This document shows positions 7,889-42,905 of a stretch of 43,986 nt of DNA, piece after piece. The stretch lies in the IMG/VR virus record IMGVR_UViG_3300025818_000034, positions 1 through 43,986 of that record; one strand, written 5' to 3'. The position numbers and the translations under genes were made by a program. This DNA is from a virus. The notes beneath the pieces were generated by a model. It was not told where the DNA came from. It saw nothing but the letters and a program-made list of their open reading frames with translations, and made no database searches. Position 1 is the stretch's first letter. Each line of letters opens with the position of its first letter.

Positions 7889-8800
7889 ATGTCAATGATT
7901 GATAACAACAAAAAAGGTACATTTGGAGATGCACTATCTAAAACAGGTGGTGCTATTTTTAATAAAACACTAGGCAGACTGTTTGGGGCAGGATTACCAA
8001 TTGGCGGTGAAAGCACCCAAGATAGAATGATGGCTAGAGCAAGATGGACCAGATCTGAAGCTTCAGATTTTAGAGTCAAAGTAGTATTACCTTCTAATAG
8101 TCCATTAATGATCGAATTCTTTGGTGGAACAAAAGATTCTGTGAAGTCACAACTATTAACTGATTGGGACACGCAAACAACATCTGGATCAAATAATCCT
8201 ATACTATCTCCTTTGGCTGATTCAGGAGGGGTGATATTTCCTATAACTCCAGGTATAATTATAAATCATACGGCATCATACTCTCCATTGAATATGCCAC
8301 ATAGTAACTATCCTCATTATGCATATAATCATAGCGAAGTACCGAGTTTCACAATTACAGCAGAATTTCCTGTACAAAACTCCGATGATGCACGATATTG
8401 GGTAGCTATGTTACATTTCTTTAGATCTGTAACCAAAATGTTTTTTGGAGGAGAAGACGCATTTAAAGGTAACCCTCCACCGATATTACATCTGTCAGGA
8501 TACGGAGATCACGTGTTTAATAATGTACCAGTAGTAGTAACAGGATTCAGTATTGATATGAGAAGCGATGTTGATTATATTTGTACGCAACAACAAACTA
8601 CTCCAAGAATAAATGTTGATAAAAAATTTATAGTTGATCCAGGATTAAATAAATCTTGGGCACCAACATTAAGTACATCAACAGTTCAATTACAACCTAT
8701 CTATTCTAGAGATAGTGTTAAAAAATTTAGTTTACAAAAATTTGCATATGGCAGTATTGATGATAACAGTAATAACGGTAATAAAATAGGATTTATTTAA
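7889..8800 (+). CDS. Baseplate tail tube cap/initiator protein, gp48/gp54-like
   Basis: This 303-residue protein matches the shared pattern of the T4-like tail-tube junction proteins in marine phages. It has GVIFPITPGIIINHTASYSPLNM in the middle (the IFP.TP....H...Y motif), FTITAEFPVQNSDDARYW, a helix FFRSVTKMFFGG, then PPPILHLSGYGDHVFNNVPV and a final VDYI. In T4, gp48 and gp54 sit on top of the hub and start tail tube polymerisation. The two are related and I cannot say from this sequence alone which one it represents. It is the first gene behind the exact late promoter and overlaps gp53 by one base (TAATG). Confidence 0.75.
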   Translation: MSMIDNNKKGTFGDALSKTGGAIFNKTLGRLFGAGLPIGGESTQDRMMARARWTRSEASDFRVKVVLPSNSPLMIEFFGGTKDSVKSQLLTDWDTQTTSGSNNPILSPLADSGGVIFPITPGIIINHTASYSPLNMPHSNYPHYAYNHSEVPSFTITAEFPVQNSDDARYWVAMLHFFRSVTKMFFGGEDAFKGNPPPILHLSGYGDHVFNNVPVVVTGFSIDMRSDVDYICTQQQTTPRINVDKKFIVDPGLNKSWAPTLSTSTVQLQPIYSRDSVKKFSLQKFAYGSIDDNSNNGNKIGFI

Positions 8801-29800: not shown

Positions 29801-31828
29801 TCGTTAACACCAACAGGATCAGAAAATCATATCGCAGTAACTGGAGACATTGAATCAAATACAACAGTGCGATTATTAGGTACAGGTGCTTCCACACTAA
29901 ACTCTGCTTCTTGGTACAGAATTGGTTTAGGAGACAACACAGTTTCTAACACCATTGATCCAAATGTATCAACTATTGAAATAAATCCAGTTACTTCGTC
30001 TGGCACAACATTGGATAGTTTTAGTATTTCTACATATCGAGGCGCCAAATATTATATTTCAGTAAACGAAATAGGATCAACAAAAAGAAGCAACATTGAA
30101 ATTTCTGTAACGCACAATGGCACTGATGCATTTATATCATCTTACAATATTATTAATACTGCATCAGATTTGATGACGATAACTGCTAATATTGTAGGAA
30201 GCAATTTAGTAGTTACTGGAACAGCAGTATCAAATAATGTAGATGTAAATCTATACAGAGTTATTTTAACCGATACTGAAGTTAGTAACGGTTCGACGCT
30301 GATAGGTTCAGTCACAGTGAACAGTGGTTCAACACAGCTGGATTCATTTGTAACATCAGCATACACTGGTGCACATTATATTGTGTCAGCGTGGAATCCT
30401 ACCGAAGGAGCAAGTTCGTTGTATGAAGTAACAGTGGTTGGACAAAATGGAAATGCTTTTGTATCTGCGTATGGAGTTAACAGTAAAGATAGTACGCAAT
30501 TAGAGTTCAGTGCGGACATATCAGGTAGCATCATAACGCTTAATGCTAGTTCAACATCAGGTAGTGGCACAATAGTTAATGCATACAGGGTTGGATTGTT
30601 AGCGACACCAGGTGGTGCTGTGATTGATCCTAACAAAGTGAGAGTGTATGTTAATGGTGCTAAGAAAGATTTATACTCGGACTACACTGTAGATATTGAT
30701 GCTAAAACAGTTAATCTCACAATTCCTCCAGCATCAGACGACATAGTTGTTATATCAACAATTGTAGGAACTCATTACTATGATAAGAACGATCAAATAA
30801 TACTACAACCAGACAATATGTCTGTGGACGGAATAACTCTATCACACGGAGATACAATTAATGCAATAACATTTAATAATGTTGCAGGAATGAATCAAAG
30901 AAGAGAAGTGTTTGTTGGAAACTCTAGTGGAGAATTTACAATATTTGGTCATCCTTTAAATGCTGATCACGTGTTTGTGTGGCTAAATGGGGAAAGTTTA
31001 GTGCAAAATTATGATTGGACTATAGCTGGTTCGTTCTTAAGTATTCCTAATAGATCATTAACAAATCAGGACAGAATAGATGTAATGTATTTTGATGAAA
31101 GATTTGATGCACAATCAAAAATGGAACAAGTTAGTTGGAGAATCTTTAAAGATATGCTTAATAGAACATTCTATAAGAGAATGAACATATATGAAACAGC
31201 AAACTTGTCTATAGATTTATTAGATGATAGTACAACAATTACTGTAGACGACGGAAATAAATTAACACCAGTTGACGGTAGTACTCAACTACCAGGAGTG
31301 GTTTATATTGGTTCAGAAAGAATAGAATATTTCTATAAATCAGGCAACGTTTTATCGAATATCAGAAGAGGTACATTAGGCACAGCAATACAACCACATA
31401 GATCAGGATCACGAGTTATAGATGCTTCTGGAAGACAGACGATACCGTATGCTGATACTGTGTATACTAAAAAACACATAGCTGATGGTGATACCACAAG
31501 ATTTATTTCATCATTATCAGTATCTTCTCCATATGAGATAGATGTATTTGTGGGGGGTAGAAGATTACCATATCTCAACGAAGACAGCAGTGCTAATTAC
31601 ACTGTGGATACTTGGGATGGTAGTAGTGCTAACATAGTATTAACAGAAAAACCAGCATCTGGTGTAGAAGTTAAAATTATACAGAAAAAAGGTAAAATAT
31701 GGTACGATCAAGGGGATGGTACAGCCACAAACGGACGTGGTTTTAACAAGTCTGATACTGCTCAAGCTCAATTTATAAGAAATGGGTCGGGCATAGTATT
31801 TGGTAGAGGCCAGTACAGTATAGAGTAA
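17828..31828 (+). CDS. Giant multidomain virion protein (wedge/fibre type, 4666 residues)
   Basis: One uninterrupted frame begins two bases after gp6 (Shine-Dalgarno AGGA). In order: an N-terminal domain with TIAHLPAFYRTDVNERFLN, also seen in wedge-linked giant proteins of marine myoviruses; a cupredoxin-like domain about 200-285 with ligand set H221, C274, H277, M280; several DGST/GDxTxxF beta modules; a chitin-binding-like W-T-A-N-T module near 1665 and another near 3413; a seven-bladed FG-GAP propeller about 2095-2560; VKPFHSKIREY near 3157; GSGY-type repeats near 3232 and 3357; three tandem repeats about 3948-4260; and a C-terminal DGDTTRFIS module. It occupies the place of T4 gp7. Host-surface or baseplate adhesion is inferred. 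No catalytic site was recognised. Confidence 0.8.
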   Translation: MADTIIDSQSNEVEVTQNGVTLRRTIAHLPAFYRTDVNERFLNSTLDQLIQPGKLDRLDGFVGRKDAYTNVSTDKYIESGLKDRDDYQLEPTVTYIQKDSSSINPEDQVKFTATYDDYINQIKYFGGNVDNHDRLNKEKIYSWNPSIDFDKLINYREYYWLPEGPNPILITNSGPNTVTEIQVTHRAQEAYLFSTYPKIDNPTITLYRGNTYKFLVNTSGHPFSIMTEPFKTGVSADDSTSILYSTGVSGNGVEQGVLTFTVPTGAPDVLYYQCGSHAEMNGAFTIKTITDTNEIDVLHEIVGTKNYTLPSGTKLSNGMKLRFDSNVTNTDYATKEFYVEGVGSSITLTDTANLIVSGAYAQQLTEPYDGVPYADRPYSVSFYRPVEKDYITIKRDSIDGNAWSAYNRWFHRATIEATAEEIGYTPNLLEEDRAKRPIIEFDSGLSLYNHGIAAKRPITLVDNVTTDIFSKMVNQTGYIVDGVPLKDGMRLLVLADTDPLVNNRIYLVNFVSVAGREVTTLKLTADFDARPQDGDSVSVEMGLKYQGKTWYYNQDQNTWIMGQSKTKLNQAPLFRMFDEHHNAFDDQAVYENSTFTGSKLFEYKISDTAPVDPVLGLQIKYNTIKNVGDMVFTSDYSTDSFEYQLAGEIKTRKFNTGHYHQVLAREEHISRVGWLQRAEESKQRVVRIFTVTDATDRAFPIDAFLNSKSLTDLSVVVEVNHVVQNIEDDYDLVDGLSNKFVQFTHDLALGDLVKITSSSSAPKVKDQGLYEVPENLSVNPFNAQLGDFTYGQILNHLNDINEKNTEIIGVTPGSSNLRDLGDIRTKGGTIIKHGAPLPQAMFLLIDPNANAIRSLEYSATEYQRFKEGFLTQTTGKTHEGSVTDRVDEIIKSMTTSKDKSFPFYYDDMIGYGESVQTRTFTVQSDEQVEYAIESYFNPTQLSNRAVYVYLNGEQLILGSDYTFNIDSDGLTISTPLTEGDIVTIKDYANTEGSFIPSTPTKLGLYPKFKPELVVDNTYRTPTNIIIGHDGSKTVAFGDYRDDLLLELEKRIYNNCKTTYDPNLLAITDVVPGAFRQTEYKTKEINNITSLDFYSWAGTNGVDYQKNDSYDELDSFTFNYSKNRSILSGEQLPGNWRGIYKFFYDTDRPHTHPWEMLGYSEKPTWWETNYGPAPYTAGNDLLWNHLEIGYDVSLKTSVEKYKRTGLSNYLPVDDSGNLRAPIHIGLIDQYQTFGTQNKWSFGDHGPAETAWRRSSHYPFAVMKMLALTKPAKFFSYFLDNSRIGTNLAGNIINTDTKLAPTLADATFYLDTSGLTTGYNRTAGYQPFIVNYLIKNGLDPAVYFYDKLKGLTVQLAYKLGGFTDKDNLKVLTDSISPSSTAGSQFIPEENYKIVFRSSNPVETFEYSGVLVELNSAVSRDGSTLEGGYKIIGYNIYKPYFKVRTPVKNNNLYNIQVGNSRAVIYKDWSERETVIPYGTVFKNIQSVVDFLIGYGKHLETQGFVFDKFSKELKEINNWETSAKEFLYWTRQGWAAGSAITLSPASDGFVIQTTESIISKFNDMFGQYSILNANGKPLEAKYLSTKRIGNKFSIDVKNTEEGIYNISMNAVQKEHIILFDNITVFSDIIYQLVTGFRQKRLKLIGWKTGDWNGDYYSPGFIFDEAKVNRWTANTDYHIGDTVEYGNYFYVSNSNHNSGNKFDHGTWTRKLNKPAAQLIPNFDYKISQFNDFYNLETNNFDETQQQLAQHLIGYQSRPYLENLFQNDISQYKFYQGFIKEKGTLNAIQKLVKAKFYGENINLNVYPEWMFKVGEFGSLDQDKVVQFLMEDDKFTNTVQSIELLNDENSSKIYSRSAAVYQDEMHSTPLEYVASETFKKYDYTREGYDRDVVQTYKTAGYPRLFDVQHTALNERDLLNLDINRIRNSDLIWIAKKSNNDWDVQRITYKGISLVSVEHQTNDNLSVLQFNNNHGLEKNQYIAIGHSQIPTLNRVYQVREILSQNSILVDSLLREAVSLNNINADESTVSVYGLLYSFISMRMSALNDSTSILPYNEYRLEDTVNQIPGDKLFVDNPGAKWKIYEKTNPYVYKRLASIDPEYNQEFGYQAISTADGKFLIVSAPGDRGDTSTGISPYSQGVVYIFTRDETTAGTLFQSVRSFTMTDSDTGTGRLGESLSLSTDENFITAGAPYANILSSDGSTRISNSGIVHMYAWSNTIRSYEEFTKFTAPESDMTSGLNYGWAHVVAEPTENSNRATRQKYLLVSAPGYNTDTGVVYLYTYTPVGDSTVSAWTQDNTITSSESGIYKRFGHRMSINDNGDILAISSISSSDSGMVEIFVRSDTVSGDSTLPGFTHVQTLRGVNFEDSTANTRFGESISMTKDGKTLVIGAPGIDNSLQADAGAIHIYKWDANNDSTQSYTLDQTILSPDTAINMQFGSTVHINNNATRIVIGAQGYANTRDMLFDNGMTTFDLQDTQIVDLNTGSGGVFTATKYNDDFLLDGKLVTTNVSGGDKFGNSVFVINDTVFVGAPNDDTITSDISTRENDGMVGVFDLKKSGQYSWKVLEEEPELVDNRLIESAFIFDKAEQKIKGYLDYYDPIKGRILGLADREINYKTEWDPAVYDVGTSGSTVQNTMSWAENHVGEVWWDLSKCRWLWYEQGDQEYKTKHWGKLFPGSVIDIYEWVESKLTPAQWANSADTAPGLARRISGQPLYSDNSTYSVRQKYDSKLDGFINYYYYWVKNSVFLPNPAISVVTRKNTTAYVSNIIANPLASGIRYFTVSDVNKLITFNTKFDLINSNTVLSVTYKDNNSEDMGDSHYVWKLIKEGDREDRPGEQIEKKWWDSLSGQDQDGNEVPDINVPLAQRYGNKIRPRQSWYTDRFSALKEIIDYSNSVLIKYQLANNIRYSNLNAAEAEPNFISGEWDEAVDTYADLTYINTQDISGTLNVLVHNDEQFNQGYWSIYHWDGREWIRVRVQTYKTSAYYEQVDWYAPSYNENKIIEKQIQYQYQLELTEVSLGDYVKVLTADTGGWKIFEKTKDEFVNVATQNGTIQLKKSLYNYNLENTGYAGTNPYDATFFDREPQLELRNIMKALRDDLFVGELSVEYNNIFFIGVRKVLEQQQYVDWLVRTSFINVSNILRELDQRKNYRVNTENYVEEYINEVKPFHSKIREYKLGYTGTETQDGIYTDFDLPAFYDGNTIRNINLSTDILTLNTYPYRFWRDNYKKYVTEIDVVHGGSGYITAPTVTLVGGTTKTVGPFTVLGTSTSGSTSGSYGYFYPLYTAQIDANVADGQAGGSSTSDKFTFSEFPGTDFYMPTTGQNTGKVDRPSAYDVYTASDVDQATAKATIREGAVVRITLLTNGSNYTATPRVVITGGGANGVTPSDTARAYAVLRNDLVRDLSTTIKFDRVQSTATVLTWTANTAYAYNDLIRYENSFYKVTTGYTSTDKFDEGLSNLVKLRGDEPYITAAERTLGFYTPTAGMPGNELSQVMTGVDYGGVMVTGLAFDNSQGWDASPWYDLPWDGYGLSRVKVFYGDGTTTQFTFDVAPTYLDVYTIYFTDISDSSGLYPAAVANVNRKRQVSQVIRGDGSTKTFTIVGDNGSPASADTYIELIPFEEDGVATPTDDKTLDSLVSGGLFKSALGISPSDIIVEGDAFLTPETSYSPEENLPGSIFDTLDIKVYQAPESGLPNILVKSYLGDGATDTFSTGRRPGSLASVIVSVDGVAQRLNTDYTVDIANNTITFASSPASNSKVSIKTFAVSGTNYMIYQEIVGDGSTSTFFTPARETYQFDSSLAQLYVLIDGIPTTNYTYVVLDKQIVITFHNGDGSTASPPSAGSLIQISSYNQSIGSGRAYTEIRSEEITYDSTNDVYTLTYPAGAIGPYSSSTILEHQGKILRGPDNTYYNGDGSTTLFSFSGYAGSTEGDSTSSGYRDTISNETKNIINAPTTVDSFLKTTYHSAWYLGVTLEEVSGELATAKYSLVHNDIDAFVSTTSLTPTGSENHIAVTGDIESNTTVRLLGTGASTLNSASWYRIGLGDNTVSNTIDPNVSTIEINPVTSSGTTLDSFSISTYRGAKYYISVNEIGSTKRSNIEISVTHNGTDAFISSYNIINTASDLMTITANIVGSNLVVTGTAVSNNVDVNLYRVILTDTEVSNGSTLIGSVTVNSGSTQLDSFVTSAYTGAHYIVSAWNPTEGASSLYEVTVVGQNGNAFVSAYGVNSKDSTQLEFSADISGSIITLNASSTSGSGTIVNAYRVGLLATPGGAVIDPNKVRVYVNGAKKDLYSDYTVDIDAKTVNLTIPPASDDIVVISTIVGTHYYDKNDQIILQPDNMSVDGITLSHGDTINAITFNNVAGMNQRREVFVGNSSGEFTIFGHPLNADHVFVWLNGESLVQNYDWTIAGSFLSIPNRSLTNQDRIDVMYFDERFDAQSKMEQVSWRIFKDMLNRTFYKRMNIYETANLSIDLLDDSTTITVDDGNKLTPVDGSTQLPGVVYIGSERIEYFYKSGNVLSNIRRGTLGTAIQPHRSGSRVIDASGRQTIPYADTVYTKKHIADGDTTRFISSLSVSSPYEIDVFVGGRRLPYLNEDSSANYTVDTWDGSSANIVLTEKPASGVEVKIIQKKGKIWYDQGDGTATNGRGFNKSDTAQAQFIRNGSGIVFGRGQYSIE
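18427..18700 (+). other. Cupredoxin-like (type 1 copper) domain inside the giant protein
   Basis: Strand-rich segment TITLYRGNTYKFLV, then GHPFSI with H221, then TFTVP, then YYQCGSHAEMNGAF. C274-x2-H277-x2-M280 plus H221 is the type 1 copper ligand set with the spacing found in amicyanin. Copper binding itself is inferred. Confidence 0.65.
24119..25500 (+). other. FG-GAP beta-propeller domain inside the giant protein
   Basis: Seven successive units each carry F/YG.x.S/A..x.D/N....V/I..AP followed by G.V.I/V.., for example FGYQAIS, RLGESLS, YGWAHVV, RFGHRMS, RFGESIS, QFGSTVH and KFGNSVF. Seven is the number of blades of integrin-alpha-type propellers. Confidence 0.7.
29669..30605 (+). repeat. 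Three tandem about 90-residue beta repeats in the giant protein
   Basis: Units start at DSF (about 29669, 30011, 30338). Each runs DSFxxSxYxxAxYxxS, then a hydrophobic strand with HNG/QNG and AFVS/AFIS, then AxIxGxxVxLxxxxxS and YRVxL. They are diverged at protein level and are not DNA-level repeats. Confidence 0.6.
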
Positions 31829-31834
31829 TAAATA
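31827..31834 (+). promoter_or_regulatory. Late-promoter-like box abutting the next ATG
   Basis: AATAAATA followed by C, overlapping the stop of the giant gene, with only 6 bases between the box and ATG at 31841. Any transcript starting from it would have essentially no leader. Confidence 0.45.
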
Positions 31835-31840
31835 CAAGCG

Positions 31841-32512
31841 ATGGACAAAGAGAATAAACAAATACAACAAGAAAAAACAGAGAAGAAAATGAAACAATCA
31901 AAACCTCAGGATAAATCAGGCATCAAAGTAGAGGGACATATCAAAATTTGGGATCCTACTTCGGGTGAAGTTATTGTGGACAAAAGAAATGCTATTCATT
32001 ATGAAAACATGAGTATAGCATTGGCTTCGAGTTTAGCAGATAGGACAACAGGATTTATTCATGAAATGGCTTTTGGAAACGGTGGAACCACAGTGGATCC
32101 AACAGGGATTATCACGTACCTAACACCAAACACTACAGGAAGTAACGCAAGTCTTTATAATCAAACATATTACAAAGTGGTAGATGATAACTCTAGTGGA
32201 AATAAAGATACTTCAAGAAACAAAATGGAAGTTCGACACACAGCAGGTAACAAATATACAGATATCGTTGTGACTTGTACTCTAGATTACGGTGAACCAG
32301 CTGGACAAGCGGCTTTTGATAATACAACAGATTTCAATGACACATTTGTTTTTGATGAGCTAGGTTTAAAATCTTTTGAAGGTACAGAGAACGGAAGTAC
32401 AAATAAACTATTGACTCACGTAATTTTCCATCCTGTGCAAAAATCTTTAAACAGATTAATACAGATTGATTATACTTTGAGAATACAATCATTAACAACT
32501 TTTACGGAATAA
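31841..32512 (+). CDS. Conserved structural protein downstream of the giant gene
   Basis: The 223-residue protein has a charged N-terminus of about 30 residues (very rich in Lys, Gln and Glu), then IKIWDPTSGEVIVDKRNAIHYENMS, GFIHEMAFGNGG and ITYLTPNTTGS. The tail has a DELGLKSFEG segment. This form recurs after the giant gene in marine T4-like phages, where it is a virion or baseplate-linked protein. Its position is that of T4 gp8, but I see no diagnostic gp8 residues. An in-frame ATG at 31889 would remove the charged leader and has a weak purine-rich ribosome site, so the start is uncertain. Confidence 0.6.
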   Translation: MDKENKQIQQEKTEKKMKQSKPQDKSGIKVEGHIKIWDPTSGEVIVDKRNAIHYENMSIALASSLADRTTGFIHEMAFGNGGTTVDPTGIITYLTPNTTGSNASLYNQTYYKVVDDNSSGNKDTSRNKMEVRHTAGNKYTDIVVTCTLDYGEPAGQAAFDNTTDFNDTFVFDELGLKSFEGTENGSTNKLLTHVIFHPVQKSLNRLIQIDYTLRIQSLTTFTE

Positions 32513-32517
32513 TGTAA

Positions 32518-33735
32518 ATGCCATATACAGTAAACAAAACAGACTCAACTGAATCTCCCAATCAATACACAGTACAAGATTCGGTTGTTAACACACAAAC
32601 TGATGTATCTTTTGTAGGAAAAGGTTATGCTGGATATGGAGAAGTCATTGCTGAAAATTTTTTACATCTATTAGAGAATTTTTCTAATGCAACAGAGCCT
32701 ACAAAACCAATCAAGGGACAACTTTGGTTTGATTCTAGCACGTCGAAATTAAATGTATTTACAGGTAGTAGTTTTCAACCTGTGGGTGGGGCAAACTATA
32801 CTTCAAGTACTCCTGTAGGATTAAAGGCAGGCGATTTATGGGTAAATGCTACTACTCAACAATTATATTTTAACAACGGTGCTGAAGATGTTTTAATAGG
32901 ACCGCCTACTTCAACGGACAGTGGATTTACTTTTGAAACTATTGAGTCTTCTATAGATGAGAGCAAGAACATAACGTACTTAAACAATAACAACGTTTTA
33001 ATTGGAATAATCAGTGACGAAGAATATATTCCTAAAATAGATATTCCAGGATTTGCTACAATCAAAAAAGGAATTGTATTAAGCACAGATTCAGAGTTAG
33101 ATGCAAAGTTTCATGGTATTGCTACAGATGCAGAAAGATTAGGCGGATTAACGTCTGATGTTTTTTATAAAGTAACTGGAGGAAACCTTACAGGAAAAAT
33201 GAACATCCGTTCGGATGAAGGGTTAAACATCGGTGCTGACGACGATTTTAAAATTACAGTAGAAACAACAGGTGATGTTAATATTATCAATGATACCAAT
33301 AACGGTGATTTAAGATTTAGGATCAAAGATGGCGGAGTACCTACAACGGTAATGACTATCGATGGTGCAACATCTAGAGTGGGTATTGGCACAACAACAC
33401 CGGGTTCAGAATTACAAGTAGTAGGTACAGTAAATGCAACATCTTTCACAGGACCTCTTACAGGTGCAGTTACTTCTACAGGAATAACGATGGTATCAGA
33501 TGGCTCTATTGCTTTTGCAGGAGCTCTAGATGATAGTTATGAAACTACACTTCGAGCTTCAGAACCAACAGCAGATAACACAATCACTTTACCAAATAGA
33601 TCAGGCACAGTGATAACATCTGGAGATTCAGGCACAGTAACTGGTAATATGTTAAAAAACAGAACAACTTTTCAAATATTAGATTCTGGTGGTGCAACAC
33701 TAGTTACAATGTATGCGGCAGGATCAGCTACCTAA
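32518..33735 (+). CDS. Phage fibre protein, paralogue A
   Basis: The 405-residue protein starts MPYTVNKTDST and continues with GKGYAGYGEVIAENFLHLLENF, KGQLWFDSSTSKLNVF and GDLWVNATTQQLYF. These GQLWFD and GDLWV blocks, followed by beta-rich repeats (MTIDGATSRVGIGTTTPGS), are typical of long or short tail fibre proteins in marine T4-like phages. It is a paralogue of 39879-41366 (same start and same YGxxxxxNxxxLLEN and LWFD motifs) and of the gene beginning at 43935. It probably forms a trimeric fibre linked to the baseplate. Confidence 0.75.
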   Translation: MPYTVNKTDSTESPNQYTVQDSVVNTQTDVSFVGKGYAGYGEVIAENFLHLLENFSNATEPTKPIKGQLWFDSSTSKLNVFTGSSFQPVGGANYTSSTPVGLKAGDLWVNATTQQLYFNNGAEDVLIGPPTSTDSGFTFETIESSIDESKNITYLNNNNVLIGIISDEEYIPKIDIPGFATIKKGIVLSTDSELDAKFHGIATDAERLGGLTSDVFYKVTGGNLTGKMNIRSDEGLNIGADDDFKITVETTGDVNIINDTNNGDLRFRIKDGGVPTTVMTIDGATSRVGIGTTTPGSELQVVGTVNATSFTGPLTGAVTSTGITMVSDGSIAFAGALDDSYETTLRASEPTADNTITLPNRSGTVITSGDSGTVTGNMLKNRTTFQILDSGGATLVTMYAAGSAT

Positions 33736-33797: not shown

Positions 33798-34748
33798 ATG
33801 GCTATTAGAACACCACTATATTATGATAATTCCGGAGGAGCAAGTAATCCTATATTGAGAGAGATGACAGCTCTTCAGATAGATGAGATTAAAAATGCCT
33901 TTAAACAATTATATTTTCAATCACCGTCTGTGGCTTTATCAGTGGTTGGTTCTGCAGGTAATGTAGGCACAATGTATGATACTCGTTTACGAGCAGGTGA
34001 TGTAGCAGTAGGAACATCAGCATTTCCAGCAGAAGCCATAACACAAGAACCACAACTGGTTCAAGTAGGATTGAGTAGAATTCAACAGACTATTAGTACT
34101 GATGCAGAACCGTCTAATGCAGGCAATATTGATTATCCAGTTTATTATTACGAAGACGTGTCAGGAAAACATATTGTAAAATCTATGACTTTACAAGATA
34201 TGTATGATACATTTGCAAAAGATGTGGTCACTGACAATTTATCAGTAGGGGGAGCAGTATATACAGTATCAACCAGTACAACAGTTTCTGGATATACTGA
34301 AGTTAGTGGCAGTGCCACCCCAATTTATACAGATACTAGAGCAGACACATCTGCTTATAATGCAGGTGAAATTCCAGAAACAGATGAAAATACAGTGATA
34401 CAAAATTATTACTTACATAAGAAGAATTATACCACACCAGCATATACTTCTCCGGCAAGAGTAACTCGATTAGGAAATATAATAACACCAGATACAACAA
34501 CGTGGAATACTCTTTTTAAATCAATTATACGATACATAGTTGCCAATACAGAAGGATATCGTTTGCGTTATTCTATAAATGGTTCAGGAGTAATAAACGG
34601 AACCCAAATGACAGATACACGTTTAGAAGGTGGTGCAGGAACATATGCAACCTATCAAGCAGGTGCCGACGATTATAGAGCTCAAGAATTTCCAGATGGG
34701 TCACCAGTAGTAATTAATACTTACGGATTATACGTTAATCAAGAATAA
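33798..34748 (+). CDS. Conserved structural or fibre-associated protein
   Basis: The 316-residue protein starts MAIRTPLYYDNSG with LREMTALQIDEIKNAF, a start shared by fibre-associated proteins of marine T4-like phages. It then has PSVALSVVGSAGNVGTMYDTRL, a Tyr-rich mid-region with repeated Y-Thr segments, and a YRLRYSINGSG...TYGLYVN end. It has no membrane segment or enzymatic motif. It is followed without a gap by the next gene (TAATG overlap). It has its own sigma70-type promoter, which is unusual for a structural protein. Confidence 0.6.
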   Translation: MAIRTPLYYDNSGGASNPILREMTALQIDEIKNAFKQLYFQSPSVALSVVGSAGNVGTMYDTRLRAGDVAVGTSAFPAEAITQEPQLVQVGLSRIQQTISTDAEPSNAGNIDYPVYYYEDVSGKHIVKSMTLQDMYDTFAKDVVTDNLSVGGAVYTVSTSTTVSGYTEVSGSATPIYTDTRADTSAYNAGEIPETDENTVIQNYYLHKKNYTTPAYTSPARVTRLGNIITPDTTTWNTLFKSIIRYIVANTEGYRLRYSINGSGVINGTQMTDTRLEGGAGTYATYQAGADDYRAQEFPDGSPVVINTYGLYVNQE

Positions 34749-35236
34749 TGATATTAGACAAGGGACGATTTACTGAAGCAACATTTGCCAGCAGTAAACG
34801 TAATTTAATTTTGGCTATATGGTTTGATGAAGATAGCAAACAGTATCACGAAATAGCAATCAAACCAGATCTAAACGATAAAAATTATCAAAAATTATTG
34901 AATACATTTACTACAGATGAAATATCGATGATGACTGACCAAAAGAGAAAACTAAACAGTCAGAATTTTGAAACTATGGTTAAAGATGTAGCATTAAAAT
35001 ATCAATTAATTTATGATCCAGCAGTAACTAATCCTCAAGACAAATTAGTAATCGACAATATATTCAACACACCAGAAGGCAATGTAGGAACTGATATGCT
35101 GTTCAATATTAAATTAAAGATATTTGATCTACCTCAAGTAAAAGAATCTACCAATACTGAATTAAAGAAAAAACTCAGAGAAGCCAAAACCCCTTTAGAA
35201 TCTCTCTATATTGCGGGTAAATTTTTATACGAATAA
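34748..35236 (+). CDS. Conserved phage protein of unknown function
   Basis: The 162-residue protein begins in a one-base overlap with the preceding gene. It is mixed alpha/beta with no signal peptide: an N-terminal beta portion LILAIWFDEDSKQYHEIAIK, an acidic middle, and a C-terminal helix LFNIKLKIFDLPQVKES with LREAKTPLESLYIAGKFL. The last part resembles proteins that follow fibre genes in marine T4-like phages. No function is known to me; it may be a fibre assembly partner because of the coupling. Confidence 0.55.
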   Translation: MILDKGRFTEATFASSKRNLILAIWFDEDSKQYHEIAIKPDLNDKNYQKLLNTFTTDEISMMTDQKRKLNSQNFETMVKDVALKYQLIYDPAVTNPQDKLVIDNIFNTPEGNVGTDMLFNIKLKIFDLPQVKESTNTELKKKLREAKTPLESLYIAGKFLYE

Positions 35237-36011: not shown

Positions 36012-36710
36012 CTATACAAATAATTTGTATTTTCCCCAATGATGAGGATGATTATCCATATGGGTAAAATGTACATATTTGATATCAGAATGAAATTCAT
36101 CACCTAGAAACATATAAGGATTGCCAGTTCTCTCAGTGTAGAGTCTATTAAGAGTGGGCAGTGTGTGTCGAGCAAAACGATCATTTCTAGCATCCATTCT
36201 ACAGAACCAAGCGTCGGGTAATTTTACAAGTTCCAGTCTTTCATTCACAGAGTCTTCTATAAAGTGTTGTTCTCCATTAACAGGACCACTGGTAAATCCT
36301 TCTTCTATGTATTTCTTTTGCCAGTGTTCTGGATTGCTCATAAATTTATCATAGATATAACGACAATCACGAGGATAATATTTGTAAAATCCACCGTTGA
36401 TAGAGAAACGTTTGGCTTCATCTCCTTTTAGATCTCTCCACCATCCTGGTGCGGCAAGGAATTGCCCAGGCTTTACGGGATATTCAAATATTTTTTTATA
36501 ATCATTTACTAGTAAAATATCAATGTCCATAACACAGACGGGCTCGTCCTGATCCAGCGTCATACCCAACATTTTGTTCCACTGCAATTTAATATTGTCT
36601 GCTACTGGTTCTCGAATCCAATGGAAATCATATTCAGGTAATTTAGATTCTAAATAGGTTTCATATTCTGGACCATATCTATCACCTATTCTAACTGCTA
36701 CGATTTTCAT
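36012..36710 (-). CDS. Glycosyltransferase (GT-A type, DxD), second copy
   Basis: The 232-residue protein has an N-terminal Rossmann-like start MKIVAVRIGDRYG, and VCVMDIDILLVND about residues 60-72. The latter is the DxD metal/sugar-nucleotide site of GT-A glycosyltransferases. Later INGGFYKYYPRDC and GEQHFIEDSV resemble GT8-like acceptors. The ATG at 36710 overlaps the stop of the upstream glycosyltransferase (ATGA), so an earlier TTG at 36719 is less likely. It is the last gene of the minus-strand cassette. The acceptor may be a phage glycan or host surface sugar, which is an inference. Confidence 0.7.
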   Translation of the reverse strand: MKIVAVRIGDRYGPEYETYLESKLPEYDFHWIREPVADNIKLQWNKMLGMTLDQDEPVCVMDIDILLVNDYKKIFEYPVKPGQFLAAPGWWRDLKGDEAKRFSINGGFYKYYPRDCRYIYDKFMSNPEHWQKKYIEEGFTSGPVNGEQHFIEDSVNERLELVKLPDAWFCRMDARNDRFARHTLPTLNRLYTERTGNPYMFLGDEFHSDIKYVHFTHMDNHPHHWGKYKLFV

Positions 36711-37390
36711 TGTACCCAATACTCCTTAATCCACGAATCAACTTCGTCCTGTTTAGGACCGTTGTTCAATATGCACACTTCGTAGTCTAATCGTAGTTTT
36801 TCAGGAGTGGTGTCTTTGCCATACTTTACTCCTTTCCAGTAAGAGTACGCGATACCTGTGGGCAATAGATCTATTTGTACAGGTTCGTGATAGAGATAAC
36901 GATCTATGCCTCGATATTTAAATAGGATCATATCTTTGTGCTGTTGAAAATAATCATAGATTTCATAGCCCTGTGTGCCTTCCCATTTCATAATGGATGA
37001 ATTATACTGTGTGGGATATTTTTCTTCTGGTGTTCTTGTTTTGTTAGGCAAAAGAAAACCTTCTTTCCATTGCGAATACAGTATGGACACTGTTCTTGTT
37101 TTGACAGAAAATAATCGTTCTAATGGATTTAAAATAACAACATCTAAATCAAAAAAGATATTTGTGCCTTTGTCAAACAGTTTAAACAGTTCTATTTTAG
37201 GCCAATAGCCAATGAGATCTGATTGTATAGGTACTGTTTTTATTTGCGGATACAGTCCTGTGGGATCGTCAGTATAACAATAGAAATCAAATGTTTGTCC
37301 ACAAGAATTCTTGTAAACCATAGCATACAGTTTATTCACAAAGTCTGGAGAATATTTTGTACCCCACTTAACACAAACTATATTGATCAT
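36707..37390 (-). CDS. Glycosyltransferase (GT-A type, DxD), first copy
   Basis: The 227-residue protein starts MINIVCVKWGTKY and contains TNIFFDLDVVILNPL about residue 80-95, a DxD site, plus an aromatic substrate region (YWPKIELFKLF). It is a paralogue-like partner of the next gene by layout, although the sequences differ clearly. Its ATG at 37390 overlaps the TGA of the upstream gene, so the longer frame from 37408 is not needed. It is coupled to both neighbours in the cassette. Confidence 0.7.
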   Translation of the reverse strand: MINIVCVKWGTKYSPDFVNKLYAMVYKNSCGQTFDFYCYTDDPTGLYPQIKTVPIQSDLIGYWPKIELFKLFDKGTNIFFDLDVVILNPLERLFSVKTRTVSILYSQWKEGFLLPNKTRTPEEKYPTQYNSSIMKWEGTQGYEIYDYFQQHKDMILFKYRGIDRYLYHEPVQIDLLPTGIAYSYWKGVKYGKDTTPEKLRLDYEVCILNNGPKQDEVDSWIKEYWVQ

Positions 37391-37956
37391 ACCGTGCTGT
37401 ACTCCCATTTAGGATGCTGTGCAAGTTGTTCTAAAAATTTTTCACTGTTTAAAAACCACACAGTCTGATCAGCACCTCTATAAAATACATTTTTTACTCT
37501 CTCTAATACTCCTTGTTTGGACAACAGTTTAGCCCATATGCCATTCACCTGTTTCATACTGGCTTCGTCTTTGTCTGACGAAGTAATATAACATTTACTA
37601 CCTTGTGGCAGTGTGTTTAATATTACAGGAATAAAAATTTGAGAACATACATTTTGATGATGTATAATACCATCTTTAGTTCTTATATGTTTAATTGGTA
37701 GCATATCACTTAACACACAGGTTCTTGCACAAACACGATAACTGTTTTCTCCCATGACATCATCGAAGCTATGAGCCACAGTGCTACCTACAGGCAAATG
37801 GTTGTAGAACAATATCCAAAGTTTGAAGTACGTATTGTTTTTAAATGTATCAATCAAACTCTTTTGAGAAGCATTGTTTATAAAACCTTTTTTAGAACAA
37901 GATTCATAAAACGTGGTCAGATCTATACTGTCATTATATTCTTGTATCTCATACAT
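37387..37956 (-). CDS. Acetyltransferase-like protein of the cassette
   Basis: The 189-residue protein has a GNAT-like layout: an N-terminal helix with TTFYESCSKKGFINN, then FKLWILFYNHLPVGSTVAHSF, in which the hydrophobic strand followed by a G (PVG) turn resembles the beta4-alpha3 acetyl-CoA area, and later KCYITSSDKDEASMKQVNG. No canonical Q/RxxGxG/A motif is present, so the assignment is tentative. The ATG at 37956 is used; a GTG at 37962 is in frame two codons earlier. It sits 26 bases after the PP-loop gene and overlaps the next by ATGA. It may modify the same substrate as the two glycosyltransferases. Confidence 0.4.
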   Translation of the reverse strand: MYEIQEYNDSIDLTTFYESCSKKGFINNASQKSLIDTFKNNTYFKLWILFYNHLPVGSTVAHSFDDVMGENSYRVCARTCVLSDMLPIKHIRTKDGIIHHQNVCSQIFIPVILNTLPQGSKCYITSSDKDEASMKQVNGIWAKLLSKQGVLERVKNVFYRGADQTVWFLNSEKFLEQLAQHPKWEYSTV

Positions 37957-37982
37957 AGACACTATTATATAACTTTTTGATT

Positions 37983-38780
37983 TTAATTAAAAGAATATTT
38001 TGTAAGATCAGTAACAGAACTGTTTCTAAATGCTCTTTTTCTTTTGACACACCCACTACAAATACCACAATTACCAACATCTACATCACAACTGCTAGTT
38101 TTGTATAGATAGGAAATAAAATTTGTGTCGTCATACAGATCTATAATTTCGTTGGGCATTAAATTTCTAAAAGGTCTCACGTTGGTATAAAAATCTTCAT
38201 TAATATGTTCAAATCCAATATACTTGCTCACACCAAATATTTTTCCATTATTTTCGATAACGTGTTGATATAGTTCCGGATACTTGTCTGCGTTTTTTTC
38301 TAATAATGGTTTTAATTTATCATCTGTTATTTTACCTTGAGACCAACCACACGTATTTAAAAATGTCATACTTTCTTCGTGTAATTTTGTGTGTCCAGAC
38401 AATACAAATTTAAGTTTACCTTGATATCGTTCTAATAATATTTTTTTAACTACAGCAGTCATTGATTGAGTCTTTTTGAATACTTCGTTGCCTATTTCTA
38501 ATGTATGTTTTCCTCCTAACTGCTCAACTCCTTTTTGGAATGTTGTTTTTAGAATGTTTAATTTGTCTTCATCTTTTTTGTACAATAAAAATTCGTCAAA
38601 TGCTATAAGAATAAACACCACACGATCTATACCATATAATTCTTTTGCAATAAGTGCCAATAATGTAGATTCAATACCACCTTGAAATAAGATACCTATT
38701 TTTTCATCTGCGGCGAGTTGAGGGAATTCAGCAGTTTCAAACACTGTTTTATTTTTGCCTAGCACATATTTGTTATTCAT
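37983..38780 (-). CDS. QueC/ExsB-like PP-loop ATPase
   Basis: The 265-residue protein has FQGGIESTLLALIAKELYG near residue 32, aligned with the PP-loop SGGxDS of ExsB/QueC-type ATPases, but with Gln and Glu at two usually conserved places. Near residues 237-250 it has C-x6-C-x2-C-x2-C (CDVDVGNCGICSGC), matching the QueC zinc site, followed by KRKRAF. This suggests adenylation chemistry such as 7-cyano-7-deazaguanine synthesis or a sugar/peptide amidotransferase. The altered PP-loop argues for a changed substrate. The start overlaps the radical SAM stop by 8 bases, so the two enzymes are produced together. Confidence 0.65.
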   Translation of the reverse strand: MNNKYVLGKNKTVFETAEFPQLAADEKIGILFQGGIESTLLALIAKELYGIDRVVFILIAFDEFLLYKKDEDKLNILKTTFQKGVEQLGGKHTLEIGNEVFKKTQSMTAVVKKILLERYQGKLKFVLSGHTKLHEESMTFLNTCGWSQGKITDDKLKPLLEKNADKYPELYQHVIENNGKIFGVSKYIGFEHINEDFYTNVRPFRNLMPNEIIDLYDDTNFISYLYKTSSCDVDVGNCGICSGCVKRKRAFRNSSVTDLTKYSFN

Positions 38781-39786
38781 TATCTATTTCCTCTTTATAA
38801 TGCCACAGTGTTTTCTGTGGAATTTTTACACCATTCGCTTCTATCACGTGAACTTGAGAACCTGTACAGCGTTGATGACAGATTGATTTGTCATTTTTGT
38901 ACATTGTTTCCAACCAATTTTGAAATACAGAGTCATTCAGTATTTCAAAGATATCACGTTGATGCAATGATATAGCATATTTATCGTGCGATATTAGCCA
39001 GTTGTTCTGTTTGTTAAATGATGATGCTGTCCAACAGCAGGGAAACAGTCTGCCCCAAGAATCCACATATATTTCTTTGCGTTGTTTGTGTAGGCATATC
39101 AGTTCGCCTTGATGTTGCATATGTTCAATATTGAATCTGTCTGCTGTGGGTGGATATATTTTTTTAATGTTATTGTTTTCGTCTTTGTACTGATAGGCTT
39201 TTTTAAAGTCTCTAAATCGTGCAGATATTTTTAGAACAAAATCTCTAAATCCCATCTCTTTTGCTAGAGCTTCTGCTTCTTCCACTTGATGCTCGTTGTG
39301 AAAGAATGGAATGTAGAACCATTTGGCATTGGCTCCGGTGTCTATGAAAGCACGAGCATTGTCTATTAGTTTACTCCATTTAACCCCAACTCTATAGATA
39401 TGATTGGTATCTTCCAACCCGTCGATGTGCCATTCCACAAATGAGTGTTGAGTCTTGTTGTATAATTTGCCCAGTTTGGTCCAAAACTCTGTGTTTCGTA
39501 CACCTCCATTGGTGCTCATAGTAATCTGGATGTTGGGATTGTGTTCAAGTATGTATTCGTGTACTGCTAATAGATCGTGAGCAATGGCAGGATCTCCATA
39601 GTTGCCACAGAACTTAATTTTCTTTAATTGTGCTACAAATGAAGGCGGAAAAAACTTAACAAAATTTGCGTAGGTAATTTCTGATTGATTATTGAGTATT
39701 ATTGGGTTATTTGTTCGAGAACACATTGGACATTTGGCATTACAACGGCTCGTAATTTCCACGTGTACTGAGTCTATTTGGTCCAT
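38773..39786 (-). CDS. Radical SAM enzyme with a SPASM-like C-terminal cysteine domain
   Basis: The 337-residue form starts MDQIDSVHVEITSRCNAKC, with the cluster motif C-x3-C-x2-C at residues 15-22. KFCGNYGDPAIAHDLL matches the GGEP-type strand after the motif, and STNGG is the later substrate/ligand turn. The C-terminal region has IYVDSWGRLFPCCW and CHQRC, a SPASM-like ligand set for auxiliary Fe-S clusters. This fits peptide- or metabolite-modifying radical SAM/SPASM enzymes. An earlier ATG at 39801 and the frame from 39885 fall inside the promoter, so the ATG at 39786 is chosen. First gene of the five-gene cassette. Confidence 0.8.
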   Translation of the reverse strand: MDQIDSVHVEITSRCNAKCPMCSRTNNPIILNNQSEITYANFVKFFPPSFVAQLKKIKFCGNYGDPAIAHDLLAVHEYILEHNPNIQITMSTNGGVRNTEFWTKLGKLYNKTQHSFVEWHIDGLEDTNHIYRVGVKWSKLIDNARAFIDTGANAKWFYIPFFHNEHQVEEAEALAKEMGFRDFVLKISARFRDFKKAYQYKDENNNIKKIYPPTADRFNIEHMQHQGELICLHKQRKEIYVDSWGRLFPCCWTASSFNKQNNWLISHDKYAISLHQRDIFEILNDSVFQNWLETMYKNDKSICHQRCTGSQVHVIEANGVKIPQKTLWHYKEEIDNE

Positions 39787-39792
39787 TATGTT

Positions 39793-39821
39793 ATTATACA
39801 TAGGTATTGCCCAAATATCAA
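39793..39821 (-). promoter_or_regulatory. Strong sigma70-type promoter for the enzyme cassette
   Basis: Minus-strand TTGATA (39821-39816), 17-base spacer, TATAAT (39798-39793). Transcription would begin near the A of the ATG at 39786. Confidence 0.7.
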
Positions 39822-39863: not shown

Positions 39864-39871
39864 AATAAATA
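39864..39871 (+). promoter_or_regulatory. Late-promoter-like box abutting the fibre ATG
   Basis: AATAAATA followed by C, with 7 bases between the box and the ATG at 39879. It lies back to back with the cassette promoter. Confidence 0.55.
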
Positions 39872-39878
39872 CAAGCAT

Positions 39879-41366
39879 ATGGCATACATTGTTAACAAAA
39901 CAGACGGCAGTCAACTAGTCACAATAGCAGACGGAACAGTAGATAACACCACATCGCTGTATCTATTTGGTAAGAGTTATTCAGGCTACGGTGAATATTT
40001 AAACGAAGATTTAGTAAGATTATTAGAAAATTCAGCATCCACAGCGGCGCCAACAGCACCGTTAAGAGGAGAGCTATGGTTTGACACAAACAACAATCAA
40101 TTAAAAGTATACGATGGGTCAGTGTTTAAACCTACAGGAGGTGCAAAATCACAATCTGCAGAACCAACAGGAGCCAGTGCTGGCGACCTTTGGGTGGACA
40201 GTGATGATGAGCAATTATATTTTAGAACCACATCAAACACTTGGCAATTAGTAGGACCTCAATATACAAAATATCAACAACTTTCAGGATGGAAAGTAGA
40301 AACTATCAATGATAGTTTTGGAGTTAGTAAAGTAATCAGTTCAATGTATAACGGCAACACACGAGTTGCTATTTTAAGTTCAAGCTCATTTACTCCAGCA
40401 TCACCTCCAACAGGTTTTGCCACAATCTCTGCGGGTATTACTTTGAACAGCACATTAGGAGCATACTTCGAAGGAACTACAACCACAGCGGCCAATCTAA
40501 ATATTTCTAGCACATCAAATCCTTCTGCATCAATTATTGCAGGTGGAAATATCATGAGAAAAGATATTGCTCAAACAATTGCAGGTGTATTGACAGTGTC
40601 TACAGATTCTGGAATGAGAATTGGTGCGGCAAATGATTTACAATTATCTGTATCAGGTATTGATGCTACAATCGCTAATATAACTCAAGATGGAGATTTA
40701 AGTTTACAAGTTAATCGAGGTGGTTCAACAATTACTCCAATTAAAATTGACGCTTCCAATGCTCGAGTGGGTATCTTTACAAGTTCACCTACAGTGCCTT
40801 TAGAAGTTACAGGTAATGTTAAAATTGTAGGTAATTTAGAAATTACTGGAGAATACAATGCTTCATCTACAGTTATCAGTACATTTGATGATGCATTTAT
40901 TAAATTAAACAATGGTAACTCTGAAACAGATGCAGGTATTATTGTTGAAACATCAGATACTAATGATGCAAGATTATTTTATAATGTTGCAGGAAATTAT
41001 TGGTCAGCAGGAGAAAATGCAACATATTCGCAACTTATTAGATTAACAGATGCAGTTACAGATGGTCATTTATCTCCAGAAAAAGTATTAAAAACTACAG
41101 GTGCTGGAAATGTTACTGTTACAAGTTTAACATTAGGAGCAGTTGGAACAAATATATCTACCACAGATACTTCTAATCTTAATGTTCCTACAACAGGACA
41201 AGTAGCAGAATCTATCTCAAGATGGGGAGGCAGTTACGTCACAGTGGACGGAACGACAGGATCACCATTGGGTAATAGTATTGCTGGAAAACGATACGTA
41301 GAGACTGTAGCACCAACTAGTGGACAAGGAAGCAACGGGGATCTTTGGTTTGTAAGGGAGCCGTAA
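39879..41366 (+). CDS. Phage fibre protein, paralogue B
   Basis: The 495-residue protein starts MAYIVNKTDGSQLVTIADG, exactly the form of the third paralogue (MSYIINKTDGSKLITL). Hence the start at 39879, not an in-frame ATG at 39840. It then has YGEYLNEDLVRLLEN, LRGELWFDTNNNQLKVYDGS, and AGDLWVDSDDEQLYF. A long beta-repeat shaft (SGMRIGAANDLQLSV, VGIFTSSPTVPLEV) ends in GDLWFVREP. It likely makes a trimeric fibre together with the glycine-rich tip gene that follows three bases later. Confidence 0.8.
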   Translation: MAYIVNKTDGSQLVTIADGTVDNTTSLYLFGKSYSGYGEYLNEDLVRLLENSASTAAPTAPLRGELWFDTNNNQLKVYDGSVFKPTGGAKSQSAEPTGASAGDLWVDSDDEQLYFRTTSNTWQLVGPQYTKYQQLSGWKVETINDSFGVSKVISSMYNGNTRVAILSSSSFTPASPPTGFATISAGITLNSTLGAYFEGTTTTAANLNISSTSNPSASIIAGGNIMRKDIAQTIAGVLTVSTDSGMRIGAANDLQLSVSGIDATIANITQDGDLSLQVNRGGSTITPIKIDASNARVGIFTSSPTVPLEVTGNVKIVGNLEITGEYNASSTVISTFDDAFIKLNNGNSETDAGIIVETSDTNDARLFYNVAGNYWSAGENATYSQLIRLTDAVTDGHLSPEKVLKTTGAGNVTVTSLTLGAVGTNISTTDTSNLNVPTTGQVAESISRWGGSYVTVDGTTGSPLGNSIAGKRYVETVAPTSGQGSNGDLWFVREP

Positions 41367-41369
41367 GCC

Positions 41370-42905
41370 ATGCCCTATACAATAATTACATCATCGGCTA
41401 CTAATCCGTTAGATCCTTTAGAAATCATCGGAACTAATCATACTCATACATTTACATATGATGGATTAAAATGGGATGGAATAATTCCGGCCGGCGCTCA
41501 ATCTATGGAAATTTATCTATGGGGTGGCGGTGGTGGCGGTGGCGCTCAAGAAACCACTGGTTCAAACGGATACGGAGCCGCTGGACAATATGTCACTCAT
41601 TCATCAATAGATTTAACCACGCACATAGGAGAATCTATCACAATAGGTGTTGGTGGTGGTGGAGGCGGTGGCTCTAACGGTGGGGGAGTTGCAGGTGGAA
41701 CCAACGGTAGAAGTTTATCAGGATTTTCAGGTGGAAAAGGTGGTGCTTCAGGACCCAACGGATCTTCAGGATCTGGGGGTGGAGGAGGCGGAGCCACACT
41801 TATCAAAATAGGTTCAACAGTTATCGCAGTCGCTGGTGGAGGTGCCGGAGGTGCTGGAGGTGGAGCAGACAGTCAGGGTGGTTCAGGTATAAATTTAAAT
41901 GTGTCTACAACAGGTACACCAAGTACACTGGGAGAAAACGGTCAGTACCATAACGGAAACGGTGGTGGTGGTGGAGCCGGTGGTGGTGGAGCCGCAGGAG
42001 GTGTTGGAGGAGGCAGTAACGACAACGACACAGGAGGTAGTGCTGGCTATAGTGGTACTTCATTAATACCAGCTGGTGGAACATCTCTTATTGGTAGTGG
42101 AACAATACCTGCAGGATCTTATGGATCTGCGGCAGTAGGAGGAAATCAAGCAAACTCAGGAGCAAATGGTAAAGCAATTATAATTGTTCTTATGAGATCA
42201 GAAGCAAAAGTTAAAATTGATGGTGTATGGAAATCAATTACACAAATTAAATTTAAAAGAGACGGCATATGGAAAAATATTACAGCCGCTTATACAAAAA
42301 TAAACGGAGTATGGAAAGCTATATTCAATTCAGGATTAGAATTAGTATCAACATCAGCCGGTTTTGGTGATGCTACAGGAAATCCAGCAACAGGATCAAT
42401 AGGATCAGGCCCAGCCGCGGCAAGCGGTGGTGGTGGAGGTGGATGCTGTATCATCTGTACAAAATTGTATGAGTTAGGCTATCTGTCAGAAGACATTTAT
42501 AAAGCAGACGAAAAATTTGGACACTGGTTGAGAGCCAATGACCCAGATGCTTATTACGGTTATCTAAAATGGGCACGAGTGGTTGTAGATTGGATGTCAT
42601 CAGAAGGTCCTCAATGTATGTTCTGGATCAAAGATAAAAAATTACGAGGTGAACGACAAAAAGCAATGGCCACAAGATGGGCAGTTAGAATTGCCACACC
42701 ATGGGCACAGCATATGGCTTACAAAATGGGTGTATTAAAAGAAGACAGTCGAGCAGGACGTTGGATTATGAATATTGGTTTATGTGTGAGTAAACTGATT
42801 GGTAAATGTATCAAGCACACAGATAAACCTACAAAAAATTTAACTTTAGGCTATGCAATGTGGGGAATTTTTAGTATACTATACCTAATTGCAGGAGTGA
42901 AATAA
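41370..42905 (+). CDS. Glycine-rich fibre-tip adhesin with a helical C-terminal domain
   Basis: The 511-residue protein starts with a beta domain, then long glycine tracts (GGGGGGG, about residues 52-235) of the kind that form polyglycine-II bundles in phage adhesins such as S16 gp38. Next are repeats of the GVWKSI/GIWKNI/GVWKAI type near 285-315. A GGGGGGCC junction leads to a helical region with KLYELGYLSEDIY, DPDAYYGYLKWARVVVDWM and WAQHMAYKMG. The last 20 residues, YAMWGIFSILYLIAGV, look like a membrane segment. An extracellular receptor-binding role is expected; the helical-plus-membrane tail is unexplained. It lies 3 bases after the fibre gene. Confidence 0.75.
   Translation: MPYTIITSSATNPLDPLEIIGTNHTHTFTYDGLKWDGIIPAGAQSMEIYLWGGGGGGGAQETTGSNGYGAAGQYVTHSSIDLTTHIGESITIGVGGGGGGGSNGGGVAGGTNGRSLSGFSGGKGGASGPNGSSGSGGGGGGATLIKIGSTVIAVAGGGAGGAGGGADSQGGSGINLNVSTTGTPSTLGENGQYHNGNGGGGGAGGGGAAGGVGGGSNDNDTGGSAGYSGTSLIPAGGTSLIGSGTIPAGSYGSAAVGGNQANSGANGKAIIIVLMRSEAKVKIDGVWKSITQIKFKRDGIWKNITAAYTKINGVWKAIFNSGLELVSTSAGFGDATGNPATGSIGSGPAAASGGGGGGCCIICTKLYELGYLSEDIYKADEKFGHWLRANDPDAYYGYLKWARVVVDWMSSEGPQCMFWIKDKKLRGERQKAMATRWAVRIATPWAQHMAYKMGVLKEDSRAGRWIMNIGLCVSKLIGKCIKHTDKPTKNLTLGYAMWGIFSILYLIAGVK

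Follow-up and report, generated by a model that had tools for sequence, protein, structure and literature searches.

Organization of the Five-Gene Cassette

Analyses of the IMG/VR record IMGVR_UViG_3300025818_000034, whose full 43,986 bases are referred to here as the window, identified a cassette of five minus-strand genes (36012-39786) situated among genes for fibre-like proteins (Table 1). The cassette encodes a radical SAM protein, a QueC-like PP-loop protein, a protein with a GNAT-like fold and two glycosyltransferases (GT1 and GT2). The T4-like nature of the window was indicated by homologues of gp46, gp47, the late sigma factor gp55, a baseplate wedge protein (approximately 36% identical to its counterparts in large phages such as Atu_ph07) and a hub protein. 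Matches to the pelagimyophage Mosig came from the fibre-like protein and from other genes of the cassette locus.

A previous sequence-only reading of this region had described a single transcription unit with overlaps at three of its four junctions, lying between paralogous fibre operons on the opposite strand and served by one strong sigma70-type promoter. The gene coordinates confirmed the overlaps, which are of 8 nt between the radical SAM and PP-loop genes and of 4 nt (ATGA) at both the GNAT/GT1 and GT1/GT2 junctions, with a gap of 26 nt between the PP-loop and GNAT genes. The paralogy of the flanking structural proteins was also upheld (33-40% in cross-matches), as was the promoter, TTGATA-17-TATAAT, which is kept in register in five related loci (L004, L015, L087, L088 and L089). 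Promoter-like sites across the whole region were not above chance (23 versus 22.5).

All five genes are under purifying selection, with ratios of non-synonymous to synonymous substitution (dN/dS) of ~0.015-0.13 for the radical SAM, GNAT, GT1 and GT2 genes and 0.14-0.35 for the PP-loop gene, the fastest-evolving of the five at ~3 times the others. The five proteins look soluble, with a highest 19-residue hydropathy of 1.63, and there is no flippase, membrane glycosyltransferase or lipid-linked sugar protein among the cassette genes. Known O-antigen conversion modules include a flippase or a membrane glycosyltransferase.

Table 1. Features of the window at and around the cassette.
Feature	Position	Strand	Remarks
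Viral record (the window)	43,986 bases		T4-like myovirus fragment
Fibre/virion structural protein	32518-33735	plus	paralogue of 39876-41366
Fibre-like protein	33798-34748	plus	316 aa; linked to GT pair across family
Small conserved protein	34748-35236	plus	162 aa; between fibre-like gene and GTs
GT2	36012-36710	minus	232 aa
GT1	36707-37390	minus	227 aa
GNAT-like protein	37387-37956	minus	189 aa
QueC-like PP-loop protein	37983-38780	minus	265 aa
Radical SAM protein	38773-39786	minus	337 aa
Sigma70-type promoter, TTGATA-17-TATAAT	39793-39821	minus	11/12; predicted +1 on radical SAM ATG
T4-type late-promoter-like site, AATAAATAC	39864-39872	plus	precedes fibre gene diverging from cassette
Fibre/virion structural protein	39876-41366	plus	cassette flank; paralogue of 32518-33735
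Adhesin-like protein	41370-42905	plus	glycine-rich (23% Gly); downstream

Characteristics of the Cassette Proteins

GT1 matched the PHROG 1962 glycosyltransferase family (1.3e-11) and has a conserved DLD motif. GT2, which has at least 294 viral relatives and a conserved DID motif, had no library match of its own and was homologous to GT1 (profile probability 96.9); neither protein matched a Pfam family. Based on their DxD motifs and family homology, both are predicted to be GT-A-like glycosyltransferases.

The radical SAM protein has the CX3CX2C motif (CNAKCPMC) and further cysteines at C60, C231, C250, C251, C303 and C307, and all nine are conserved in its closest relatives. The five from C231 to C307 are auxiliary-cluster cysteines as found in SPASM/twitch proteins. 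Its Pfam matches were weak and below the gathering score (Radical_SAM, E 2.8e-5; SPASM, E 0.0067), the NCBIfam match was to a twitch-type radical SAM protein (1.5e-12), and no library match was specific. It is 80-84% identical to its counterparts in relatives with the full cassette, and in 50,697 GenBank phages the closest relatives, in Campylobacter phages, were only 28% identical. A sequence search of solved structures found nothing for the radical SAM protein, GT1 or GT2. PADLOC analysis of nine local proteins gave no match except a weak viperin similarity of the radical SAM protein (9.7e-5), and a role in anti-phage defence or counter-defence was rejected on that result.

The PP-loop protein matched QueC (PF06508) through its C-terminus only, with an E-value of 8.6e-5 and 22.6 bits against a cut-off of 22. 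It lacks the SGGxDS phosphate-binding loop of the QueC family, the corresponding residues being QGGIES in the window and DGDIES, EADIES, TGDIET or TNGIKS in relatives. The C-terminal set of four cysteines is intact, with a spacing of CX6CX2CX2C versus the published CX8CX2CX2C of QueC. The protein thus shares the PP-loop fold and C-terminal Cys4 motif of a family that includes QatC and Cap9 (PMC13329287, PMC13279940), but differs from these two in its eroded loop, its cysteine spacing and its lack of the partner genes of their systems, as PADLOC detected no Qat or type IV CBASS partner among the nine local proteins. QatC loses its function when the SGGxDS serines are mutated, and it needs them for defence in vivo (PMC13279940). 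Because this loop is eroded in the cassette protein, and more so in its relatives, the ATP-adenylating role that it had been given appears doubtful. Its predicted model was of modest confidence (pLDDT 74.8), with the Cap9-CdnD complex among the fold matches at rank 44. QueC-like proteins encoded in distant gene islands retain SGGADS.

In two of the related loci, L088 and L089, the synonymous divergence (dS) of the PP-loop gene (7998-8786) was 0.026 versus 0.13-0.45 in neighbouring genes. As the value is so far below that of its neighbours, it is likely that the PP-loop gene alone was recently exchanged between these related phages.

The GNAT-like protein had no credible family match by sequence. 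Its AlphaFold model (pLDDT 93.7) had GNATs as its best Foldseek matches in the PDB (E ~1e-5, TM ~0.55), consistent with a predicted GNAT fold, and the family, with at least 199 viral relatives, has the signature HSFDDVMGENSYR..ARTC. The coenzyme A-pyrophosphate motif [RQ]xxGx[GA] is absent from the window protein; allowing it anywhere in residues 61-150, it was present in 10/62 members of the family versus 9/13 of a canonical GNAT control, and the acyltransferase label previously attached to this protein is consequently doubtful. Neither it nor the PP-loop protein had relatives in the 50,697 GenBank phages. Pattern scans of the genomes of 84,980 species, using short peptide patterns that reach only sequences keeping them and so miss divergent relatives, found no cellular relative of the GNAT-fold or GT2 families, and within that reach a cellular origin of the two families was rejected.

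The GNAT-fold family is frequent in very large enzyme islands (~10-20 genes) of uncultured phages (L008, L010, L011, L023-L028, L031, L033-L044 and others). These islands also hold several radical SAM families (one with an HMPTM zinc ribbon), TauD- and Asp/Asn-hydroxylase-type oxygenases, kinase-like proteins, an aminotransferase, an amidinotransferase-like protein and QueC-like proteins of the SGGADS type.

Distribution and Modularity of the Locus

The sequence-only reading had proposed that the five genes belong together, a claim that would fail if they never travelled together in related phages. They do: the complete order, from radical SAM through PP-loop, GNAT and GT1 to GT2, was found at the same site in the five further uncultured lineages named above, giving six lineages with the window. 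The same five were recovered again when GT2 was used as the query (as L108, L101, L103, L100 and L106 for L004, L015, L087, L088 and L089, respectively). In the counts that follow, the loci are related and so not phylogenetically independent, and many contigs end early, so that gene counts per locus are lower bounds.

The genes also occur in other combinations. L002 and L003 have only the PP-loop and GNAT genes at this site; no match to GT1, GT2 or the radical SAM protein was found anywhere in either record (72.7 and 49.4 kb, respectively), and at the L002 locus there was no match to the 162-aa protein. Five loci (L096, L098, L099, L102 and L104) have the radical SAM, PP-loop and GT1 genes, then, in place of the GNAT gene, one whose product is different and has a methyltransferase domain at its C-terminus, and then GT2. 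A GNAT-like N-terminal domain was suspected in this replacement protein, and hhalign gave it no support (probability 1.7). Among 58 non-redundant GT2 loci, GT1 was present in 46, the fibre-like gene in 39 and the 162-aa gene in 38; a radical SAM gene like that of the window was present in 25, the window-type PP-loop gene in 13 and the GNAT gene in 7. The PP-loop and GNAT genes are missing from most loci with GT1 or GT2.

As an independent test of the core of the locus, loci were re-collected through the fibre-like gene alone, and 39 non-redundant ones had 6 kb or more of sequence downstream; the first sequence of the query came from an epimerase-bearing clade, and the 39 are not independent trials. 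The downstream flank held GT1 or GT2 in 34/39 and the 162-aa gene in 37/39, and the two loci without the 162-aa gene were also without the glycosyltransferases. A gene of the nucleoside diphosphate (NDP)-sugar epimerase type (PF01370, 4e-25) was present in 33 of the 39, and in most of these 33 it was co-oriented within the fibre operon, between the fibre-like and 162-aa genes.

Together, these data indicated that the locus is modular, with a constant core of the glycosyltransferase pair, the fibre-like gene and the 162-aa protein, around which genes of the radical SAM, QueC-like, GNAT-fold, methyltransferase, hydroxylase and nitroreductase types are exchanged from locus to locus. The suggestion of a dedicated five-step pathway was not supported, given the reduced set in L002, the methyltransferase protein in place of GNAT in five loci and the lack of PP-loop and GNAT genes in most glycosyltransferase loci.

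Relation to Known Phage Loci

No phage system with this gene set had been recognized from the sequence, but the locus corresponds to the host recognition cluster (HRC), described by Zaragoza-Solas et al. (2020, PMC7029224) as a hypervariable region of pelagimyophages and cyanomyophages with fibre genes, glycosyltransferases and radical SAM cassettes. In line with that description, the structural region of this T4-like marine phage contains a block that is hypervariable: the fibre genes of the window stand at this place in a T4-like structural module with the same neighbours as in Mosig, its gene content is variable and non-syntenic, and it includes glycosyltransferases and a radical SAM cassette. 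The cassette is a new allele of this known type of locus. The constant unit of fibre-like gene, epimerase, 162-aa gene and GT1-GT2 does not appear in the accessible portion of the HRC account, nor do GNAT-fold or QueC-like partners. No description of the constant unit, or of the eroded QueC-like protein with a motif-less GNAT-fold partner, was found in the open-access literature searched, which is weak evidence of novelty.

In the cultured Pelagibacter phage Mosig EXVC030M (Mosig_00080-00100, MT647606), the order is fibre-like gene, epimerase and small protein, then, convergently, GT1, nitroreductase, GT2, GT8, methyltransferase, carbamoyltransferase, radical SAM and DegT aminotransferase. Mosig shares with the window the layout, the fibre-like protein (40% identical to the 316-aa protein), the 162-aa protein (hmmsearch, 2.6e-27), GT1, GT2 and a radical SAM-family homologue. 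It differs in its much larger cargo, which includes the sugar aminotransferase, carbamoyltransferase, GT8, nitroreductases and epimerase, and in having no PP-loop or GNAT gene of the window type.

Expression Signals

Sites matching WATAAATAM occur in the window at 285, 7842, 14305, 31827 and 39864. Their total is not above chance (5 observed versus 8 expected); the suggestive aspect is where they lie, with 5/5 on the plus strand and shortly upstream of structural genes; they are probable T4-type late promoters. A search for such sites found none for the cassette. In other clades, the glycosyltransferases share a strand with the fibre genes and lie downstream of them, and in L124, L130, L139 and L149 the fibre genes that they follow are themselves preceded by a late-promoter-like site. 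As promoter type and orientation vary by clade, the timing of expression may differ between clades.

At three of the promoter-like sites, the predicted +1 is within ~1 base of a start codon (late-type, 31827-31841 and 39864-39876; sigma70-type, 39786-39821). Given that predicted position, transcripts from these sites would be leaderless.

Proposed Function and Alternative Explanations

The sequence-only reading had suggested a small pathway for a sugar or peptide, possibly altering the host surface or a fibre. The fixed pathway did not survive. Sugar chemistry at a surface did, and it is the best general reading of the locus because the neighbouring genes in relatives encode NDP-sugar epimerase-type, DegT aminotransferase, carbamoyltransferase and GT8 proteins. 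The probable role of the cassette is to attach an unusual sugar to the fibre of the phage itself, or else to the surface of the host. That GT1 and GT2 place a diversified sugar on the neighbouring fibre is, in our estimation, evenly balanced. We put forward more tentatively, as somewhat short of an even chance, that marine T4-like phages have a dedicated fibre-glycosylation system in which a constant unit of fibre-like protein, epimerase, 162-aa protein (acceptor or adaptor) and glycosyltransferase pair is combined with swapped radical SAM, QueC-like, GNAT-fold, methyltransferase and carbamoyltransferase proteins that diversify the glycan.

If fibre glycosylation is correct, the cassette would be one allele of a hypervariable segment that tailors carbohydrates, situated within the HRC of a pelagimyophage-related T4-like phage. 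Its constant engine would be the two homologous GT-A-like enzymes, moving nucleotide sugars, host-derived and in relatives perhaps epimerized by the phage, onto an acceptor synthesized, like the enzymes themselves, in the infected cell. That acceptor would most likely be the adjacent 316-aa fibre-like protein or a protein encoded next to it, and the 162-aa protein may serve as an adaptor or chaperone. The sugar or the acceptor would be tailored by the interchangeable genes in the middle of the cassette (here radical SAM, QueC-like and GNAT-fold), so that each phage would carry a different decoration, which plausibly tunes receptor binding or shields the fibre. Such swapping would resemble the diversification of O-antigens, with the difference that it takes place on the virus. 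What the data establish is the identity of the genes at the level of fold or family, their linkage, their modularity and the selection on them, whereas the acceptor, the sugar, the reaction of each tailoring protein and the benefit to the phage are inferred. Virion glycosylation is established in mycobacteriophages (Freeman et al. 2023, cited in PMC12619734); there too, phage-encoded sugars are placed on virion proteins, although the acceptors are capsid and tail-tube proteins, unlike the fibre proposed here. Marine T4-like phages, among them those that infect SAR11, occur in great abundance, and their host-recognition islands contain many enzymes that are usually labelled auxiliary metabolic genes. 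If the proposal is true, glycan diversification by the phage would offer a mechanism for receptor binding and shielding that can be tested, and a cultured phage-host pair exists for this (Mosig and HTCC1062). We know of no radical SAM or QueC-like tailoring in mycobacteriophage virion glycosylation.

Several observations weigh against a fibre acceptor, which is putative. The 316-aa protein has no PHROG match and was considered a fibre from its position and composition only, and there is no epimerase in the window's own locus. Linkage to the fibre genes would also be expected from a cargo hotspot or from selection of host-range genes as a block. In addition, its own sigma70-type promoter and opposite orientation suggest that the cassette of the window clade is expressed before, or apart from, the late fibre genes. 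Finally, the glycosyltransferases could act on core sugars of lipopolysaccharide (LPS), which is near the reading of the pelagimyophage authors.

This last point leads to the alternative that the cassette modifies the host surface (LPS core or another glycan) in the course of infection, preventing superinfection or concealing the infected cell, and that the fibre linkage merely reflects a shared host-recognition island. LPS cores are built by cytoplasmic GT8-type enzymes. Consistent with this alternative, the cassette of the window clade lies on the opposite strand and has a host-type promoter, and Zaragoza-Solas et al. interpret the glycosyltransferases of the HRC as modifying the host O-chain/LPS (PMC7029224). 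However, the glycosyltransferase pair is tied to the fibre-like and 162-aa genes, being absent together with the latter in L002 and in 2/39 fibre-gene loci; it is co-oriented downstream of late-type sites in other clades; and the cassette has no membrane or lipid-linked sugar proteins. We consider host-surface modification the main rival, possible but on the whole less likely than not.

An improbable alternative is that the PP-loop and GNAT-fold proteins form a separate protein-modifying unit, acting for example on the fibre N-terminus, and are merely co-located with the glycosyltransferases. In CBASS, the N-terminus of a protein is the target of QueC-family proteins, Cap9 conjugating a deazaguanine to it (PMC13279940), and the Cap9-CdnD fold match of the PP-loop model points in the same direction. 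L002 retains just these two genes at the site, and in distant islands without GT1 or GT2 a GNAT gene is followed directly by a QueC-like gene (L008, L023, L024 and L028) or is separated from one by a single gene (L035, L037, L040 and L077). On the other side, the PP-loop protein is without the SGGxDS loop whose serines QatC needs in vivo, its model confidence is modest, no Qat or CBASS partner is in the cassette, and the two genes also occur apart.

The high gene turnover, the eroded and fast-evolving PP-loop gene and the local drop in dS between L088 and L089, which suggests exchange, might instead indicate a recombination hotspot whose cargo is selfish or decaying and makes no coherent product. 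This we regard as very improbable given the purifying selection on all five genes, the gene order kept in six lineages and the conserved promoter and overlaps. A 7-deazaguanine (preQ0-type) pathway of DNA or tRNA modification, with the radical SAM protein as QueE and the PP-loop protein as QueC, was rejected as extremely unlikely, since that pairing is superficial: the radical SAM protein matches twitch/SPASM-type families and no QueE model, the PP-loop protein has neither the SGGxDS loop nor the QueC cysteine spacing, and there is no QueD, FolE or TGT gene in the cassette.

Other Structural Genes Near the Cassette

Upstream of the fibre genes, the window encodes a virion structural protein of 4666 aa (17828-31828; PHROG 10938, 1248 bits). 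It occupies the place of VrlC, which adjoins the homologous fibre genes in Mosig, but blastp at 1e-4 gave no similarity between it and the Mosig protein. The HRC is described as lying between VrlC and the neck gene gp14, and no gp14 was recognized in the window. The adhesin-like protein on the other side of the cassette has long glycine runs, like glycine-rich phage adhesins, and a distinct cysteine-containing C-terminal domain that is kept in relatives.

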